The translations under genes were made by a program, and so were the position numbers. A DNA stretch of 64,000 nt, from assembly GCA_029245025.1 (NCBI GenBank), contig JAQWQC010000034.1:124001-188000 (forward strand). Direction: 5' to 3'. The notes under the pieces were generated by a model. It had not been told where the DNA came from, ran no database searches, and worked only from the letters and a program-made list of their open reading frames with translations. Below, piece by piece: positions 46,484 through 58,141 of this stretch. Every line of letters starts with the position of its first letter. Position 1 is the first letter of the stretch. The stretch is from Rhodospirillaceae bacterium (GTDB taxonomy: Bacteria > Pseudomonadota > Alphaproteobacteria > Rhodospirillales > Rhodospirillaceae).

Positions 46484-47041
46484 ATGAGTAAGTCTGCGGC
46501 TTTATTATTCAGCGTATGCGTCGCGACGGTTCAGTTGTCAGAAAGTCTGCACGCTCAATCGCTAACCGGTATCTCCGCAACTGCCTTTGCTGACATGCCA
46601 TGGTCCGCCACTTTAGAAATTCGTGCCGGGCGGGACTTACCCTTGGAGCGCGACCTTGTCTCTGAAGTCAGCCGTCTTTTGGCGGCGCAGGGATATACGG
46701 TTGCGCCGCGAGGCGATGTCATCGTCACTGTCGATGGCGGCACACCTTTGCCCGGCGTTGAGTCCCGGTCGCCTGTTACCTTTGATCAACGGCTGCGGTC
46801 TATGGGCACGGTACACAATGACAAAGGGGTCACGATTCCGTTCAACAGAAAGGATGCTGCCCCTGGAGCGGCTGTGTTTACGCTCCGCATGTCGGCTTAT
46901 CGCCCAGGCCAATCGAACCTATGGGTTGGTCAGGTATCTGGACCCAACAATGGCGGTGGGCGAAGGGCCACAACCTTCGCGTTGGCAGAATCACTGATTT
47001 CTAAATTTGGCCAATCTGCGACAGAATCTGCCGCCGAATAG
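46484..47041 (+). CDS. Exported protein of unknown function, 185 aa
   Basis: ATG 46484 opens a signal peptide (MSKSAALLFSVCVATVQL, cleavage after LHA); the track start adds 13 residues without family sense. The mature part has SATLEIRAGRDLPLERDL, VSRLLAAQGY, VIVTVDG and a C-terminal WVGQVSGPNN strand, suggesting a small alpha/beta lipoprotein-like fold, but I do not recognise a family. It lies about 130 nt after the flavoprotein gene and 148 nt before the next gene. Confidence 0.7.
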   Translation: MSKSAALLFSVCVATVQLSESLHAQSLTGISATAFADMPWSATLEIRAGRDLPLERDLVSEVSRLLAAQGYTVAPRGDVIVTVDGGTPLPGVESRSPVTFDQRLRSMGTVHNDKGVTIPFNRKDAAPGAAVFTLRMSAYRPGQSNLWVGQVSGPNNGGGRRATTFALAESLISKFGQSATESAAE

Positions 47042-47189
47042 CGAGCACCACTGTCCTCGGTTCGGACAATCCAGCCCGCTCAATAGCCTGTTCACGGGAT
47101 TGTGCCTGACTCTCAATAGGACGTCGCAGTACACTCTACCTTATGCCGTACCCCACTACGTGCCAGCAACTCGATCTGGGAGAGATGCC

Positions 47190-47822
47190 ATGACCAAGCA
47201 ACCGCGCAATCTTTATGAAGCCCCCGATTCAGCTAAAGGTGGCCCGCCACCCGCTGTCAAAGCTGAGTCTGGCTCAGGTCGTCCCAACCCAACTCTCGCG
47301 ATGATATCTCCCATTCAGGGGCGCGAGGAAGAGTTCGGTCAAGCCGTCAATGTCGCGCTGAAGACAATGACCGACACGATGCCCTATCAACACTATTTCA
47401 ACGATGCGTTGGTCAAGTCGCACCTGTCTCATATTCAGTTCGCTAAGAATCATGGCTTGCTAGATGAAATGATCTCCGAAGATCAGAAATCGATGTCGCC
47501 GATGCTCGGCCGTATTCGCGGCAAGGTCGAGGAGACTGGAAACACCGAACTCGGCATGATCGCGATGTTCGATCGTACTTCTTGTTTTTATCAAATGCTG
47601 TCGGAGTGGGACTCAGAGCCTGGTATGCGAAGGTATAAAGAACCGTTTGGTTATGTCTTGGAGATGGGCAAGCGGATCGGCCAGTTTGATCTAACAGTTG
47701 AAGAAATTCACCAGATTTATACCAAGCCCCGCTATTACGGGTATGCGGGACAACTTGGCCTTAAACTCGACGTAACCGACATCGACACCGACGGCTATAT
47801 CACCGTCACTCTGGTCGAATAA
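47190..47822 (+). CDS. Unknown protein, paralogue A of a tandem pair (no signal peptide)
   Basis: A 210-aa protein from ATG 47190, preceded by GGGAGAG; the track start overlaps the previous gene. A low-complexity N-terminal tail (residues 1-40) leads into a largely helical domain. That domain shares with the next gene the segments NDALVK, HIQFAK, LL-EM, SPM, a cysteine followed by aromatic residues (SCFYQ), MRRYKEPFGYVLE, RIGQFDLT and PRYYGY. I cannot assign a family. With no signal peptide it should be cytoplasmic, while its neighbour is exported. Confidence 0.75.
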   Translation: MTKQPRNLYEAPDSAKGGPPPAVKAESGSGRPNPTLAMISPIQGREEEFGQAVNVALKTMTDTMPYQHYFNDALVKSHLSHIQFAKNHGLLDEMISEDQKSMSPMLGRIRGKVEETGNTELGMIAMFDRTSCFYQMLSEWDSEPGMRRYKEPFGYVLEMGKRIGQFDLTVEEIHQIYTKPRYYGYAGQLGLKLDVTDIDTDGYITVTLVE

Positions 47823-47974
47823 GAAAAACATAGAGATTACATGAGATTTGAGACCTGTTCTCTAGTTGGACAATCGCCCGAGGGCAGTTAAACCGGCCTA
47901 TGTGGTCAAGCCGGGTTCAGGTATGCTGCCTTCAATCTTTTGCAGTCGGATTAATCCAAACCGGGAGCTCGTCC

Positions 47975-48613
47975 ATGACCATACGTTTGCTTGAAGTCGC
48001 TACGGCTGGCGTGATTGCCGTCGCGATTTCCACTTCCGCCTTTGCCGCAGGACGTCAAGTCGGCCAGTACTCACCTTTCCCTGAAAAAACAGATGAGTTG
48101 GGTCAGGCGATGCAGATGGTCATCAAGACCTTGAATCATTCCAGCCGTGCCTATGAACACCAAGTAAATGACGCGCTAGTAAAAATGACTCTCGGTCATA
48201 TCCAGTTCGCTAAAGACAATGACCTTTTGGAAGAAATGGTTGATGACGAAATCAGAGTACAAAGCCCGATGCTGATACGCGTTGCTAAGATGATTGAAGA
48301 GTCTGGTGACAAAGAGCTCGCCCTTAAGGCTGTCTTCGAGCAAACAACCTGTCACTTCCAATTGGTTATGCAAACTGAAATGCAACCTGGTGTGCGCCGG
48401 TACCTGTTTCCCTATAGCCATGTTCTGGAGGAAACCCGTCGTATGGGTCAACACGACCTTACTAACGAAGAAATCTATAACGTTTGGCTGAAGCCACGTT
48501 ATGAGCGCTATGGTGAAGTGCTCGGCGTTCCTCTAAAAGTTGATCCTTGGGATCCCGAAACCCAAATCATCACAGTGCGTATTAAGGGTTTCGATCAAGT
48601 CTCAATGCGCTAA
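47975..48613 (+). CDS. Unknown exported protein, paralogue B of the tandem pair
   Basis: A 212-aa protein from ATG 47975 (GGGAGC ahead) with a signal peptide, MTIRLLEVATAG, cleaved after AFA. The mature part aligns with paralogue A across nearly its full length: YSPFPEKTDELGQAMQMVIKT, NDALVKMTLGHIQFAKDN, SPMLIRVAKMIEESGD, TTCHFQL, VRRYLFPYSHVLEE and RRMGQHDLTNEEI. It is followed by a strong terminator at 48635. The pair probably arose by duplication, then one copy gained or lost export. Function unknown. Confidence 0.75.
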   Translation: MTIRLLEVATAGVIAVAISTSAFAAGRQVGQYSPFPEKTDELGQAMQMVIKTLNHSSRAYEHQVNDALVKMTLGHIQFAKDNDLLEEMVDDEIRVQSPMLIRVAKMIEESGDKELALKAVFEQTTCHFQLVMQTEMQPGVRRYLFPYSHVLEETRRMGQHDLTNEEIYNVWLKPRYERYGEVLGVPLKVDPWDPETQIITVRIKGFDQVSMR

Positions 48614-48754: not shown

Positions 48755-50875
48755 CTAGAATCTCCCACTGATTGTTAGACGAGCGTTAACGGGCGCACCG
48801 ACAGTGACTTGATGTGTGCTATGCGAGTTTGGGAAGTACAGCGTGTCAGTCAGGTTTTCTATATTAAGTTGCAGGCGGAGCTGATCAGATAGGTCTAAGT
48901 ATGCTGCAGCATCAATACGCGTATAGCTCGGCAGGACAGCAGTGTTACCGTTGTTAACGAAGCTCTCGTCTTGATAAGTCATTCCCAGGCCGATGCCGAG
49001 CTTATCTGTGACCTGAAAGTTATTCCAGAGCGATGCCATGTTTTTAGGTAATTCACGTGGTCGCAGCCCTGCAGGGCCAGATCGCTTGACTTGCTCGCCG
49101 TCAAGATAGCTGTAACCAGCTGAAACAAACCATCTGTCTGTCACTTGACCCTGAAGCTGCGCCTCGAATCCCTCTATCTTTGACTCGATGATATCCAAGG
49201 TTGAGGGGTCATTATCAGCCACCTGAGGTGAACTCTGCTGTACTTCAAAAATGGCCGCTGTAAGGCTTAGGCCTTGATTAAAGTCCCATTTCACACCTGC
49301 TTCTAGGTTGGAGAATGTGTTCGGGTCTAGTTGATCATTGTTGCCATTGATATTTGCGAACTGTTCTCCGCTGCGAGGCAAAAAAGACTCGCTATAACTT
49401 CCGTATAAAGAAATATTTTCCTGAGGTTTGATTACTAGGCCGATGCGCGGCGATATTTCTTCATCCTTTCGCGTCCTTGTTTCGTTTGCGAGAACATTAA
49501 AAACTTCAATATCAAAGCTATCGAACCGAGCTCCAACAATAACGTCCAGTTTCTCAGAAATTTCGATCTCGTCTTGTATGTAAGCAGAAAACACATCAAT
49601 GCCCACGCGTGTATCGTCATTAAGGTCTGTAGAGAAGCTGTTTGTTGCTGTTAGGCCGGACGAGTTCACGCCGATGCCACGCCTTAAATTGAGCGGCCGA
49701 GCAATTGGAAACACCTCTTTGTCATCTGCTGTAGTATCCCAGAACGAGTTAAAGCGGTCTTGATTTGAGGACGTGTCTATATATTCGAAGCCAGCAACAA
49801 CCGTGTGAAGGAGGCCGCTAGTTCCAAATTCTCCAATTAAATTTCCGGATAAGATCAGGTTTTTACGATCGGTTGTGTCAACATAACCATCAAGCGTCAC
49901 GATGTTTGGTGTGGTCGCCTGACTGTAACCTGACGCATAAAAGTTCTGATATAGCTTTGCATAGTCGCCATAAGACGCGACGAAATTACCTTTCAGATTT
50001 TCGGAAAAGGTGTGCTGCAACGTCGCGCGCAGTAAATGGGCTTTGAGCTGTGTGGTATTGAGTTCGGGGTCAGCGAAAACAATATCTTTGAGTGCTTCAA
50101 CAGGACGACCATCTGATCCTGTTGGTATTCCGCGATCAATGAAGCGCTCATGATCGTTGTATTCATAAGACACATGTAGCGCCGTATTTTGTGCCAGTTC
50201 GAATTTGACTGTCGGATTTACGCCAAATCTATCACCGCTATAAAAATCACGATGATTATTTAAGCGCTCGTAAAACGCGTTGACTCGGAACGCGGATTCC
50301 TCACCTGTAGTAAAATTGCTGTCAATCTGAACGTCAAAAGCACCAAATGCGTCAACACTGGCCGCGTAACCAGAGAAGGTTTCTCCGGTCACAGCTCTCT
50401 TTGTGACGCGGTTTAAGATGCCGCCCGTACCACCACGCCCAAACAATAGCGCATTTGGGCCGCGTAAGATCTCGATCTGCTCTAAATTATAAACAGGGCG
50501 ATAATACTGAACGTCATCACGGACACCATCGATGAAGAAGTCGGCCGTTGAACGCACGCCACGAAATACAACAGAGTCGCGGTGCCCTTCACCCTGTGAT
50601 GTGTTCACCCCTGGCGTATAATTTACGATGTCGCCGATACTCTTAAAGCCCCGCTCTGTGATCTGCTCAGCGGTGACGATGGAGAGGCTTTGCGGAACAT
50701 CAATGATCGGAGTCGGTGTTTTGAGAGCGTTAATTTGATCGGTGTAGAGATATTTCCCTGTGACTACAATTTCATCAGGCGAAGTCTCTTCTGGTGACTG
50801 AGCTCCAGCTGAAGTAGCCGAGAATGCAAGGTAAAGGGCTGTTGCGCTAGAAAATTGGACAAAACATGATCTCAC
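48755..50875 (-). CDS. TonB-dependent siderophore receptor
   Basis: Outer-membrane receptor of about 706 aa for a ferric siderophore. GTG 50875 is chosen over the TTG at 50890 because GGAGCG lies about 9 nt ahead. A signal peptide ends near AGAQ. The TonB-box-like DEIVVTG and the plug domain (TPIIDVPQSLSIVTAEQITERG, FRGVRSTADFFIDGVRDD, IEILRGPNALLFGRGGTGGILNRVTKR) are clear. The barrel follows and ends in the terminal phenylalanine (TISGRF) needed for insertion. Fur-like boxes upstream indicate iron repression. No siderophore synthesis or ABC uptake genes are adjacent, so it probably takes up a foreign siderophore. Confidence 0.95.
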   Translation of the reverse strand: MRSCFVQFSSATALYLAFSATSAGAQSPEETSPDEIVVTGKYLYTDQINALKTPTPIIDVPQSLSIVTAEQITERGFKSIGDIVNYTPGVNTSQGEGHRDSVVFRGVRSTADFFIDGVRDDVQYYRPVYNLEQIEILRGPNALLFGRGGTGGILNRVTKRAVTGETFSGYAASVDAFGAFDVQIDSNFTTGEESAFRVNAFYERLNNHRDFYSGDRFGVNPTVKFELAQNTALHVSYEYNDHERFIDRGIPTGSDGRPVEALKDIVFADPELNTTQLKAHLLRATLQHTFSENLKGNFVASYGDYAKLYQNFYASGYSQATTPNIVTLDGYVDTTDRKNLILSGNLIGEFGTSGLLHTVVAGFEYIDTSSNQDRFNSFWDTTADDKEVFPIARPLNLRRGIGVNSSGLTATNSFSTDLNDDTRVGIDVFSAYIQDEIEISEKLDVIVGARFDSFDIEVFNVLANETRTRKDEEISPRIGLVIKPQENISLYGSYSESFLPRSGEQFANINGNNDQLDPNTFSNLEAGVKWDFNQGLSLTAAIFEVQQSSPQVADNDPSTLDIIESKIEGFEAQLQGQVTDRWFVSAGYSYLDGEQVKRSGPAGLRPRELPKNMASLWNNFQVTDKLGIGLGMTYQDESFVNNGNTAVLPSYTRIDAAAYLDLSDQLRLQLNIENLTDTLYFPNSHSTHQVTVGAPVNARLTISGRF

Positions 50876-50928
50876 GGTGGGGCGCTCCAAAGCTTATGAT
50901 AATTTACGTGATGTAAACTATGTTAATG

Positions 50929-51389: not shown

Positions 51390-53738
<2,349 letters not shown>

Positions 53739-53789: not shown

Positions 53790-53820
53790 AAAGACCCTCG
53801 CTTCGGCGGGGGTCTTTTTT
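53790..53820 (+). terminator. Rho-independent terminator of katG
   Basis: AAGACCCTCGC and GCGGGGGTCTT pair around TTCG, a stable tetraloop, followed by a run of T. It isolates katG from the envelope-protein cluster that starts at 53922. Confidence 0.92.
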
Positions 53821-53921
53821 ATTAGCTGGACCGCCATAACGTGGTCGTGACGCACAAACCTCATTTCGCTGATTGATCAACCCTGCGTAGGGTGTCTCCC
53901 TAATAAATGGGGGTCGCAATC

Positions 53922-54422
53922 ATGAAACCGTCTAAGCAGTTGGCCTCTATAGGATTGGCTTTGGCATGCGGTATGGGAATAGGCGCGCTCAGCGTCGGCA
54001 GTTTTGCGCAAGGCAATGCGCTCCGTTGGGTCAACGGCACCTACCCAGAAGCCTATGAAGCAAGTATGGATGCCTCATCCGCGGCCTTCGAGCGTAAGGA
54101 CATGGAAGCGACCCGGTCTCATATGGCTGAAGACTTCGCCACCTACGAATTACACGGCCCGGAATCACCGAAGCTGTTGGTCAAGGGTCGGGACAAAACC
54201 ATTGAGGTGATGAACAATTTCTTTGCCGGTGATTTTGGCTCAAGCTGGGATGGTGCTGAGGTCGAGAAGCTCGGCTCCATCGGCAACACCATGGTTCAGA
54301 TTGAGTACGATCGCTATAACATGGAGGGTGGTCAGATCACCATCCCGACTTTTGTCATCATCCAATATCAAGACGGCAAGCGCTGGCGCGAGTGGCGGCT
54401 TCGTCCCGATCCCGCCACATAA
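53922..54422 (+). CDS. Exported SnoaL/NTF2-like protein
   Basis: A 166-aa protein from ATG 53922 (GGGGGTCG ahead); an ATG 15 nt upstream is also possible. The signal peptide (MKPSKQLASIGLALACGMGIG) is cleaved near SFAQ. The mature part has the helix EASMDASSAAFERKDMEAT, HMAEDFATYEL and strands ending VIIQYQDGKRWREWRL, consistent with the cone-shaped NTF2/SnoaL-like fold used as an enzyme or ligand-binding pocket. It heads a four-gene run with gaps of 27, 35 and 27 nt in which every product is exported or membrane-anchored. Ligand unknown. Confidence 0.75.
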   Translation: MKPSKQLASIGLALACGMGIGALSVGSFAQGNALRWVNGTYPEAYEASMDASSAAFERKDMEATRSHMAEDFATYELHGPESPKLLVKGRDKTIEVMNNFFAGDFGSSWDGAEVEKLGSIGNTMVQIEYDRYNMEGGQITIPTFVIIQYQDGKRWREWRLRPDPAT

Positions 54423-54449: not shown

Positions 54450-56312
54450 ATGCGTCTAACACATGTCTTGTCCGGTTTAACGGCCGCGGCATTTTTGCTT
54501 GGGGCGACGGATGCTGTGCTCGCAAAGGGCAACCCAGAGCGTGGCAAAGTGCTCGCACGGGATTGCTTCGCGTGTCACGGCCCCGACGGGAACAGTCCAT
54601 CGCCGGTAAACCCAAAGATTGGCGGTCAGCACGAGCGGTATATTTTTCTGGCGCTGATGCAATATTTGGAGGGGGAGCGGAAACGCTCTTTGATGACGGG
54701 TTCTGTGCTGGGCAAGACAGAGCAAGAACTCGAAGACATCGCTGCCTATTACGCGGCACAGCCGGGATATCTCTCACGCCGGGAAATTCGTCAGCGTAAA
54801 CGGGAGGGCGTTTCCGCAGAACAGCAGGGTAGCCCCCAAGGCGGCGGCCCACCTCAAGGTGGCGGTGCGCAGCAACCCAAGTTTGATCACAGTGATCAGA
54901 TCGCCAAGTACAACAGCATGCTGGCCCAGGCGGTGTACGACGCTAGCCAAGTGACCGAGCAGGTAGACGAAGCGGTTTGTGCGGCCATCACCGGTGATGC
55001 TGGATCCGATTCCGATAACGACGGTCTGGCTGATGCCTACGATGCGGCTCCCAATGATGCGGGCGAATTTGTCACCGATGTTAGTGGTGATGGCTACTTT
55101 GAGATTTGCAATATCCAACAGTTCGAAGCCATTGGCGCGCTGGGATCAGGCGACGGCACAAGCACGACGCTTGATCGCACTGTCCGTATGACCCGCAAGT
55201 ATCAAGTGGTGCGCGATCTTGATGCTTCGGTGATAGAGAACTTTGAGCCGATTGGGGATTGCGGCCCCGAAGGCAACTGTATGATCACGTTTGATCGCTT
55301 TGGCTTTCAAGGAATCGTCGACGGGCAGGGGCATGTAATCCGTGGTCTGCGCATCTCGAAGCCTGGAGGTGGCGGTGTTGGTTTGTTCGGTGTGCTCGGT
55401 CAAGCGGGTACCGTGCGCAACATTGTGCTTGAAGATGCCGCCGTGGTTGGTCGCGGCGGTGTCGGCATGTTGGTCGGCAGTAATTTCGGCATCGTTTATC
55501 AAAATCGCGCGCAAGGCGAGGCGGCCGGTGAGTTGGCCGTCGGTGGATTGGTCGGCGGAAGTGCAGGATTTGTTGCCTACAGTGAATCGACAGGCAAGGT
55601 TTCCGGTAGTCAGGCGGCGGGCGGTCTCGTCGGCGATATGCGCGGTGCGGTCTACTTTAGTCACGCCAATATGGAAGTGGCGGCTATTCGCGGTATGGGC
55701 GGCTTGGTCGGTCTCAACACCTTTGGTTTTATTCTTAGCAGTTATGCAGAAGGCACGATCATCGGAAGCAATGACGTTGGTGGTCTGGTCGGTATGAACA
55801 CGGACGGTAAGGTGCGCAACAGCTATGCAACGAATACCGTTGAAGGCGACGGGAATAATGTTGGCGGTTTGATTGGTTTTCATTCCCTTGGTGATGTGCG
55901 CAACAGCTATGCAACGGGCTCTGTCTCGGGTGCCGATACGGTCGGCGGATTGGTCGGGCGCAATAATGGTATCGTCAAGCGTAGCTTTGCGGCCGGGCAG
56001 GTGACAAGCACTGGCGCTACCGGAGGAATCTCCGGTGCCGTTGTCGAAGGAGAAGTTGTCGCGAGCTATTGGTCTGCTGCTGCGCAGGCTAAAGACGCAG
56101 CTGATCTAGCCCGGTTGTCGGGCAATCAAACGGGTTGGTCTCCGGCACAGCCGCCTGTAGCTGACCTGATCGACTATTTCTGTGATGCAAACACCAATGG
56201 GTTTATCGACCCGCAAGAACGTTCACCGGACAACTATGTGTGGGAATTTGGCTCGTCCTCAGAGCCACCATCCATACGCTGTGCCTTACGCGCTGGGGCG
56301 CAAAACGGATAA
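54450..56312 (+). CDS. Cytochrome c fused to a calcium-loop and GLUG-repeat domain
   Basis: A 620-aa exported fusion. The signal peptide ends near VLAK. Residues about 28-105 are a class I cytochrome c: heme motif CFACH (C39, C42, H43), a candidate axial methionine in SLMTGSVLG, and the closing helix LEDIAAYYAAQ. A Gly/Gln/Pro linker (about 124-142) follows. Then comes a DSDNDGLADAYD calcium-type loop, as in thrombospondin type 3 and dockerin-like loops. From about residue 280 to 540 there are GLUG-like repeats of the form VGGLVG...SYATG, each a turn of a predicted right-handed beta-solenoid. GLUG repeats are mostly known from surface adhesins, so a heme domain in front is unusual. Second gene of the exported cluster. 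Confidence 0.85.
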   Translation: MRLTHVLSGLTAAAFLLGATDAVLAKGNPERGKVLARDCFACHGPDGNSPSPVNPKIGGQHERYIFLALMQYLEGERKRSLMTGSVLGKTEQELEDIAAYYAAQPGYLSRREIRQRKREGVSAEQQGSPQGGGPPQGGGAQQPKFDHSDQIAKYNSMLAQAVYDASQVTEQVDEAVCAAITGDAGSDSDNDGLADAYDAAPNDAGEFVTDVSGDGYFEICNIQQFEAIGALGSGDGTSTTLDRTVRMTRKYQVVRDLDASVIENFEPIGDCGPEGNCMITFDRFGFQGIVDGQGHVIRGLRISKPGGGGVGLFGVLGQAGTVRNIVLEDAAVVGRGGVGMLVGSNFGIVYQNRAQGEAAGELAVGGLVGGSAGFVAYSESTGKVSGSQAAGGLVGDMRGAVYFSHANMEVAAIRGMGGLVGLNTFGFILSSYAEGTIIGSNDVGGLVGMNTDGKVRNSYATNTVEGDGNNVGGLIGFHSLGDVRNSYATGSVSGADTVGGLVGRNNGIVKRSFAAGQVTSTGATGGISGAVVEGEVVASYWSAAAQAKDAADLARLSGNQTGWSPAQPPVADLIDYFCDANTNGFIDPQERSPDNYVWEFGSSSEPPSIRCALRAGAQNG

Positions 56313-56347: not shown

Positions 56348-57346
56348 ATGATCAATCGCCGCACTCTTTTGGCCGCTGCAGCAGTTATGGCGGTGGCTTC
56401 GCCGGTCACGGCCCAAGAGCGGATATCAAATTTCAAGCCGTTTGCAGATGGGGACATCTTTGTCGCTGCGACGATCATGGATCACCCCACGGATGATCAC
56501 ATGGGGACGGGGCGAATTTTCCAATATGACGAGGATCTCCAACTCAAAGGCACGCTCTACACCAAAGGCACCACACACAAAGTAGGCGGGCTCGCTTTCG
56601 CACCCGATGGAACTCTTTGGGCCTTCGCGCAGGGCACACCTGCTGTTGTCGAGATTGGTGATGATGGTGTTCAAAAGCCGGTGCGTAAGTTTTCGGATCG
56701 CACCCTCAGCAGTGTGACGTTTGGCGATGACGGCAGCTTGTTTTTTGGCGAACATTTGATCGGCAAGAAGCTCAGCGTTCCACCGCTCACAACACGGTTT
56801 AATCTGTTGCCTGGGCGTGACGTGATCGGCGACGGCTACGTCTTCAAGTTTAATTCTGATGCGGAGTTGCTCGAAGAATTCCCGACCGATACCCATGGCG
56901 GTGTTGCCGGCATTCACGGTGCCACGTCGACCGTGCTAGCCGATAACGGCACTCGCATGATTTACATTTCTGAAACTGGCAACCGGGTGATGCAGTACGA
57001 CTTGGCTAACCGTAAGCAATTGCCAGATCTCAAAGTGTTTGACGAGCACGAAGAAATTTTCATGGTGTTGACCATGATGCCGATGGTTGATGGATCTTTA
57101 TTGCTCAGCACGGGTAACGGCATGGTCACGCTGGACCAGCACACCGGTGAAATTATCAAGTACTACGATATGGACAGCAGCGGATGGGCCGCTTGCGCCC
57201 CTACGGCAGACGGCAAAAATATTATTGTCGGTAACTTCTTCAGCGGACAGGTTGTTCTGGTCAGCGTAGAAACCGGCGAGGTTGTCCAAAGCGCTTACAT
57301 TGGCCAGAACAATTCATTATCTGGTGTGGCGCAATACCCCGGATAA
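56348..57346 (+). CDS. Exported beta-propeller protein (SMP-30/NHL-like)
   Basis: A 332-aa protein from ATG 56348; the track start lies in the previous gene. The N-terminus MINRRTLLAAAAVMAVA ending VTAQ looks like a Tat signal. The mature part is a series of repeats typical of six-bladed propellers: VGGLAFAPDGTLWAFAQG, SVTFGDDGSLFFGEH, GIHGATSTVLADNG, MMPMVDGSLLLST and AACAPTADGKNIIVGNFFSGQ. Such folds include lactonases, strictosidine-synthase-like proteins and NHL sensors. The metal-binding residues of SMP-30 lactonases cannot be matched with confidence. Third gene of the exported cluster, 35 nt after the cytochrome-GLUG gene. Confidence 0.75.
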   Translation: MINRRTLLAAAAVMAVASPVTAQERISNFKPFADGDIFVAATIMDHPTDDHMGTGRIFQYDEDLQLKGTLYTKGTTHKVGGLAFAPDGTLWAFAQGTPAVVEIGDDGVQKPVRKFSDRTLSSVTFGDDGSLFFGEHLIGKKLSVPPLTTRFNLLPGRDVIGDGYVFKFNSDAELLEEFPTDTHGGVAGIHGATSTVLADNGTRMIYISETGNRVMQYDLANRKQLPDLKVFDEHEEIFMVLTMMPMVDGSLLLSTGNGMVTLDQHTGEIIKYYDMDSSGWAACAPTADGKNIIVGNFFSGQVVLVSVETGEVVQSAYIGQNNSLSGVAQYPG

Positions 57347-57373: not shown

Positions 57374-58141
57374 ATGACGAAGAAACGCATCGGACTCGCA
57401 GTGCTTGCGGCGCTCGGCGCTCTTATAATCTGGTCGTTCATTCCTAACCAATTCCCCGTTTATGAAACGCAAGCCAGTGCGGCCCCTGAAGGGGGGCACC
57501 ATGTTCTGATTTTCGGTGCCACGCGGAATTCGGGATTGGAAACCGCCAAGATTCTTATTGGTCGCGGTGACCGGGTGACGGCATTCGTTCGTGAGTCGTC
57601 AAATACGGCCGAGCTTGAGTCGCTGGGAGTTAATCTTGTTGTTGGTGACGCGCTCGATATGCCTTCGGTGGAAGCGGCGTTTGTCGATAAGGATTATACG
57701 TCAGTGGTTACAACCATCGCCTGTTTCAGTTGTGACCCCAAGCCCGATTATCTTGGCAACCGCAACGTTTTCGACGCGGCGGAAGCTGCTGGTGTAAGAC
57801 GTGTGATTCTCATGACGACGGTTGGTGCAGGCGATAGCTACGAAGCGGCACCGTTGCCAGCGCGCAATTTTCTTAAAGATATTATTCCACTCAAGACACA
57901 GGCCGAAGATCATCTGATGGCCAGCAGCCTGGACTACACCATCATCCGTCCAGGTGGACTTAAATCAGGTCCTGCGACCGGGCGCGCCTACTTAAGTGCA
58001 AGCCGCGAAGCGTTTGGCATCATCAATCGAGCTGATCTCGCCGGGCTGGTGGTCAATATAATTGATGACGACAACACCATCGGGGAGGTTTTGGCAGCCA
58101 TGGACGCGGACATGGTTTTCCCCTGGGACATGTTGTTTTAG
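57374..58141 (+). CDS. Membrane-anchored NAD(P)-binding protein, NmrA/SDR-atypical family
   Basis: A 255-aa protein. An N-terminal hydrophobic helix (IGLAVLAALGALIIWSFI) without a clear cleavage site is followed by a short linker and then the Rossmann loop FGATRNSGLETA. The fold continues with TAFVRESSN, VVGDALD, VILMTTVGAGD and DYTIIRPGGL, all typical of NmrA-like atypical SDRs. If the helix is a signal anchor, the NAD(P) domain faces the periplasm; an inward topology is also possible. It is the last gene of the exported cluster and resembles the exported protein at 25625. Confidence 0.8.
   Translation: MTKKRIGLAVLAALGALIIWSFIPNQFPVYETQASAAPEGGHHVLIFGATRNSGLETAKILIGRGDRVTAFVRESSNTAELESLGVNLVVGDALDMPSVEAAFVDKDYTSVVTTIACFSCDPKPDYLGNRNVFDAAEAAGVRRVILMTTVGAGDSYEAAPLPARNFLKDIIPLKTQAEDHLMASSLDYTIIRPGGLKSGPATGRAYLSASREAFGIINRADLAGLVVNIIDDDNTIGEVLAAMDADMVFPWDMLF

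Follow-up and report, generated by a model that had tools for sequence, protein, structure and literature searches.

The cytochrome c/GLUG fusion gene

Within the window (the whole 64,000-nucleotide stretch analysed here), a single uninterrupted frame of 620 codons with no internal stops runs from 54450 to 56312 on the forward strand and encodes a 620-aa cytochrome c/GLUG fusion protein. Its N-terminus reads as a Sec-type signal peptide (residues 1–25, ending ...DAVLA/KG; window 54450–54524), and the aligned homologues have similar hydrophobic N-termini. A cytochrome c4-like monoheme domain (residues 27–106; 54528–54767) is followed by a variable Gly/Gln/Pro-rich linker (residues 107–174; 54768–54971), set off by its low identity among homologues. 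The GLUG module then consists of an acidic leader (residues 175–285; 54972–55304), a repeat region located by Pfam and periodicity (residues 286–545; 55305–56084), and a C-terminal cap with the pattern W-x-F-G...P..IRC (residues 546–620; 56085–56309), leader and cap being delimited by alignment and part-by-part identity; all of these features lie on the forward strand. A Pfam scan placed both Cytochrom_C and Glug above their curated cut-offs. The signal peptide, heme motif, linker and calcium-type loop listed in a preliminary description of this DNA are thus all located on the one 620-codon frame. A structure model of the full chain was too poor for use (pLDDT 38.8).

The Cytochrom_C match covers residues 30–100 (27.1 bits against a cut-off of 21.3). 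The only CxxCH in the whole chain is the heme-attachment motif at residues 39–43 (C39-F-A-C42-H43), and Met82 aligns with the conserved methionine of the cytochrome c4 N-half. C39, C42, H43 and Met82 are invariant in nine aligned sequences, which bears out the axial methionine that had been called plausible; from its aligned position Met82 is the expected axial heme ligand. The best match among solved structures is likewise the N-half of cytochrome c4 (6q2u; E = 3.1e-19 with the single sequence, 8.7e-28 with the family profile), and the nearest solved relatives are the electron-transfer cytochromes c4 and c552. With the class I c-type cytochromes c4, c552 and c553 the domain shares the CxxCH, a PKIGGQ-type segment, the axial methionine and Sec export; cytochrome c4, however, consists of two heme halves in tandem, whereas the fusion has one heme and a GLUG module.

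The leader of the GLUG module contains two conserved loops, DSDNDG (residues 187–192) and DVSGDG (210–215), and is joined to the repeats by an entry segment. Pfam scores the Glug family at 42.1 bits (cut-off 20.5) in two stretches. By motif and periodicity the repeats previously described as several VGGLVG/SYATG units number nine, of 26–29 residues each, starting at residues 310, 339, 365, 391, 417, 444, 472, 499 and 525, just two of which pass the Pfam cut-off individually. Self-identity at a lag of 26–27 residues is 0.192–0.197; in 2000 shuffles, from each of which the best lag within 15–39 was taken, the best lag averaged 0.142 with a maximum of ≤0.194, and the signal at lag 27 exceeded the best lag of every shuffle. 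AlphaFold renders residues 285–559 as nearly all beta in a low-confidence model (pLDDT 59.2, pTM 0.64), and a fold search with this model gave no match at E ≤ 0.001; a sequence search for solved structures of the GLUG part likewise gave none. Besides the two heme cysteines, six cysteines are invariant among the aligned homologues, four in the leader (Cys177, Cys220, Cys271 and Cys277) and two in the cap (Cys578 and Cys611), a pattern that fits disulfides in an exported protein.

A stand-alone GLUG protein (PF07581) from another alphaproteobacterium, a 630-aa ORF at locus L107, shares the acidic leader, the entry segment (..PIG..F.G..DG.GH.I..), the VGGLVG repeats and the W-x-F-G...P cap (its counterpart reads WDFGGSDRLPALK), but has no heme motif. 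Stand-alone GLUG proteins are, moreover, usually much larger than the fusion. Because the heme-less protein shares leader, entry, repeats and cap, the fusion protein is best described, as far as these sequences go, as a GLUG module of the ordinary kind preceded by a cytochrome domain.

A conserved module of exported proteins

The fusion gene is flanked closely by partners on its own strand. Upstream is an exported SnoaL-like protein (53907–54422; Pfam SnoaL_2, below cut-off); downstream are an exported beta-propeller-like protein with a Tat-like RR signal (56348–57346), recognised from its sequence and from orthologue searches, and an NAD(P)H-binding (NmrA-like) Rossmann protein with an N-terminal membrane anchor (57374–58141), assigned by Pfam and neighbourhood. 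Beyond these are two MFS genes, one HAD-like gene and one alpha/beta hydrolase-like gene. The gaps from SnoaL through fusion and propeller to NmrA are 27, 35 and 27 bp, and an intrinsic-terminator-like hairpin of 12 pairs with a T run lies between katG and the module (53790–53817, forward strand); the short gaps together with this hairpin suggest that the genes from SnoaL onward form one transcript.

Judged by their N-termini, each of the four proteins appears to start with an export signal or a membrane segment. The RR motif is present in most of the module's propellers, and the NmrA-like protein has a hydrophobic segment after Lys/Arg; in the second family discussed below its counterpart (L069 1915–2748) has an N-terminus that reads as a cleavable signal. 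The NmrA-like protein is accordingly a predicted periplasmic Rossmann protein. The propeller assignment comes from weak PQQ_2 or SGL matches and points to no recognised catalytic family; a function was sought for it among families and solved structures, which returned weak generic propeller matches only. The genome from which the window comes encodes three further propeller paralogues (L073 8853–10799; L074 9426–10442), two of them in tandem and adjoining an aldo/keto reductase-like gene.

The propeller and NmrA genes stand beside the fusion in all ten genomes that carry it. In two of the three genera (g1 and g4) the genes run SnoaL-like, fusion, propeller, NmrA-like, MFS; in the third (g6) and in G353, a genome of a second family, they run fusion, propeller, NmrA-like, SnoaL-like, and the flanks differ from those of g1 and g4. 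Among the exceptions, no SnoaL gene was found next to the fusion in G001, and at L026 it is placed about 2.7 kb upstream of the fusion. G353 has the same gene set, with a GLUG protein and a propeller 48–52% identical to those of the window; its SnoaL label derives from similarity to the window protein only. Conservation of the neighbours had been proposed as a check, and the set is indeed kept although flanks and gene order vary, also in the second family.

The surroundings are more variable. A TonB receptor (48755–50890) and a catalase-peroxidase, KatG, with a Tat-like N-terminus (51453–53738) lie between a conserved 237-aa gene and SnoaL only in the window and in its closest relative (L023), and this segment is probably a recent insertion. 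Two related genes in tandem (47007–48613), whose products are about 44% identical, are conserved next to the module in g1 and g4; a Pfam scan of one product gave no match. The g6 flank (L030 13450–18485; L105 1004–4104) has an FAD/cNMP-binding/4Fe-4S protein and a membrane protein, with an FHA and multiheme cytochrome protein in addition at L030.

Distribution and conservation

Full-length fusions were found in ten genomes of one family, the present one included, belonging to three genera (six in g1, one in g4 and three in g6), among them metagenome-assembled genomes recorded as 'Alphaproteobacteria' and 'Rhodospirillaceae'. The other nine proteins are 48–99% identical to that of the window. 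Related genomes therefore do carry the same fusion, and since it is full length and intact in ten separate assemblies of three genera, a frameshift or assembly chimera joining two genes, which the preliminary description had named as a danger, is ruled out. In G353 the GLUG part is 48% identical and the gene is cut in the linker by the contig end, beyond which a heme domain is probably present.

Between the most distant homologues, conservation is highest in the heme domain (64–66% identity), followed by the solenoid (54–56%, or 50–62% for solenoid and leader together) and the cap (40–44%); the linker, at 19–24%, is free to vary. Where dS could be computed, dN was below dS in all parts except the signal peptide, many dS values being saturated or undefined.

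Profile searches were run on three overlapping genome sets, drawn from the class (385 genomes), the phylum (399) and the order (317). GLUG proteins and c4-type cytochromes are numerous in these genomes, and the two occur in one protein solely in this module; among GLUG frames outside the module no CxxCH was found in the fetched loci, where many frames are cut by locus ends. In the literature searched, no paper mentions the GLUG motif in combination with cytochrome c. The range is narrow and takes in only a few genera, all of them uncultured marine Alphaproteobacteria. Other origins were also considered: phage records and PHROGs gave no match and a viral-contig scan found nothing, no plasmid record covered 80% of the query (the best places cover GLUG parts), and PADLOC returned no defence system.

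Co-occurrence with the propeller and a heme-less variant

Of the 73 family genomes, exactly those ten that have a full fusion also have a propeller orthologue (492–539 bits); the remaining propellers form a clearly lower-scoring group of paralogues (≤444 bits). G005, a genome of the same genus that is 98% complete, has neither fusion nor propeller orthologue, and its NmrA matches do not rise above paralogue level. In two small genomes of g23 an NmrA-like gene sits between the same outer neighbours and the other three module genes are absent.

One genome, G628, encodes a natural variant (L100 8808–10364) in which the signal peptide directly precedes the GLUG part and the cytochrome domain is absent. 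An NmrA-like gene adjoins this heme-less gene, and a propeller was found neither between the two nor elsewhere in the assembly, which is 66% complete. A tree built from the GLUG part places G628 with g6, on a long branch whose place is unsure; because the members of g6 carry the heme, loss of the heme domain in G628 is the simpler reading of this tree.

Possible function

Given a c4-like heme, exported partners and a propeller that occurs in parallel, the fusion most likely transfers electrons in the periplasm and uses its solenoid to dock partners, rather than acting as a surface adhesin. The best explanation, held tentatively and at somewhat less than even confidence, is a soluble periplasmic monoheme electron-transfer protein in which the GLUG solenoid serves as a docking scaffold for exported partners. 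The c4-like domain, on its flexible linker, would exchange electrons in either direction with an exported partner, most likely the adjacently encoded Tat-type beta-propeller protein, while the solenoid would keep the heme close to both the propeller and the membrane-anchored NAD(P)-binding protein. From there, electrons may exit via the respiratory c-type pool to a heme-copper oxidase. The genome itself encodes the cytochrome c maturation gene ccmE (CcmE) and a heme-copper oxidase gene (COX1), and therefore the means of attaching heme and a sink for electrons are both present. That the solenoid docks partners, which way the electrons run and that the propeller is an enzyme are points we infer. 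In favour of this explanation, no part of the protein is better conserved than the heme domain, with an invariant CxxCH and axial methionine, its nearest solved relatives transfer electrons, the module genes are closely spaced and recur as a set in a second family, propeller orthologues keep to the fusion genomes, and G628 lacks heme domain and propeller alike; counting against it, propeller paralogues occur without an adjacent cytochrome partner, the joint absence of cytochrome and propeller is a single case in an incomplete assembly (G628), the structure models of the chain and the solenoid are of low confidence, and the propeller, with its weak PQQ_2/SGL matches, belongs to no recognised catalytic family, so that a redox reaction there is conjectural. 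Periplasmic electron exchange, one of the roles first suggested for this protein, thus fits, and the cell surface and the binding of an oxidised polymer, suggested with it, are without positive support.

It is also possible, if doubtful, that the genes form a new periplasmic oxidoreduction module, in which the Rossmann, propeller and SnoaL-like proteins would act on a small molecule and pass electrons to the solenoid-held heme.

The protein could instead serve the periplasm generally, as an electron carrier or a store of heme, with no transfer to its neighbours and a cluster that is merely co-regulated. Cytochromes c4 and c552, its relatives, act as general carriers, and the missing SnoaL neighbour in G001 shows that the set is not rigid; however, the propeller and NmrA neighbours persist despite changed flanks and propeller orthologues are confined to fusion-bearing genomes, so that this explanation appears unlikely.

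Repeat solenoids often bind glycans, and the solenoid might bind a glycan or other polymer, whether of the cell wall, an exopolysaccharide or an imported polysaccharide, while the heme feeds an oxidative enzyme that attacks it, a mechanism proposed for Cbp2D of Cellvibrio. A precedent for a c-type heme with a polymer-binding domain is Cbp2D of Cellvibrio japonicus (PMC8981238), an exported multi-domain protein that joins c-type cytochrome domains to a CBM2 and a YceI-like (X158) domain (PMC8981238, PMC12542752), and the MFS, HAD-like and hydrolase-like genes downstream of the module would suit such a role. Cbp2D is set apart by its domain description, its heme and binding domains being of other kinds, and Pfam, which gave Cytochrom_C and Glug only, found no CBM2, YceI or FN3 in the fusion; Cbp2D may serve as a loose analogue for a possible polymer-binding role. 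Scans of the fusion and the module proteins found no carbohydrate-binding module, YceI domain or polysaccharide-active enzyme, and the folds of the module members are of small-molecule type, which makes a polymer-binding function rather improbable.

Finally, a surface adhesin with an acquired heme domain that senses or tunes attachment, in line with the cell-surface placement of the preliminary description and with the large repeat proteins (e.g. annotated MBG- or PKD-domain proteins) that make up most GLUG proteins in the searches, is very improbable, since nothing was found to anchor the protein outside: Pfam and NCBIfam detect no outer-membrane anchor or surface secretion domain, the chain of 620 aa is small for a GLUG adhesin, the homologues align to a C-terminus at about the same place, and the tightly linked, conserved partners are exported proteins that look periplasmic.

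Electron transfer in the periplasm with a docking solenoid stays the favoured account of an architecture that is new relative to the genomes and literature searched. The domain combination is real, conserved and apparently undescribed, its component domains being of kinds already known; outside the module, those searches nowhere showed the two domain families in combination. The narrow range, a few uncultured genera, limits its general weight. The gene module and its one natural heme-less variant nevertheless make a simple, testable case, which addresses how a repeat solenoid may scaffold electron transfer inside the periplasm.
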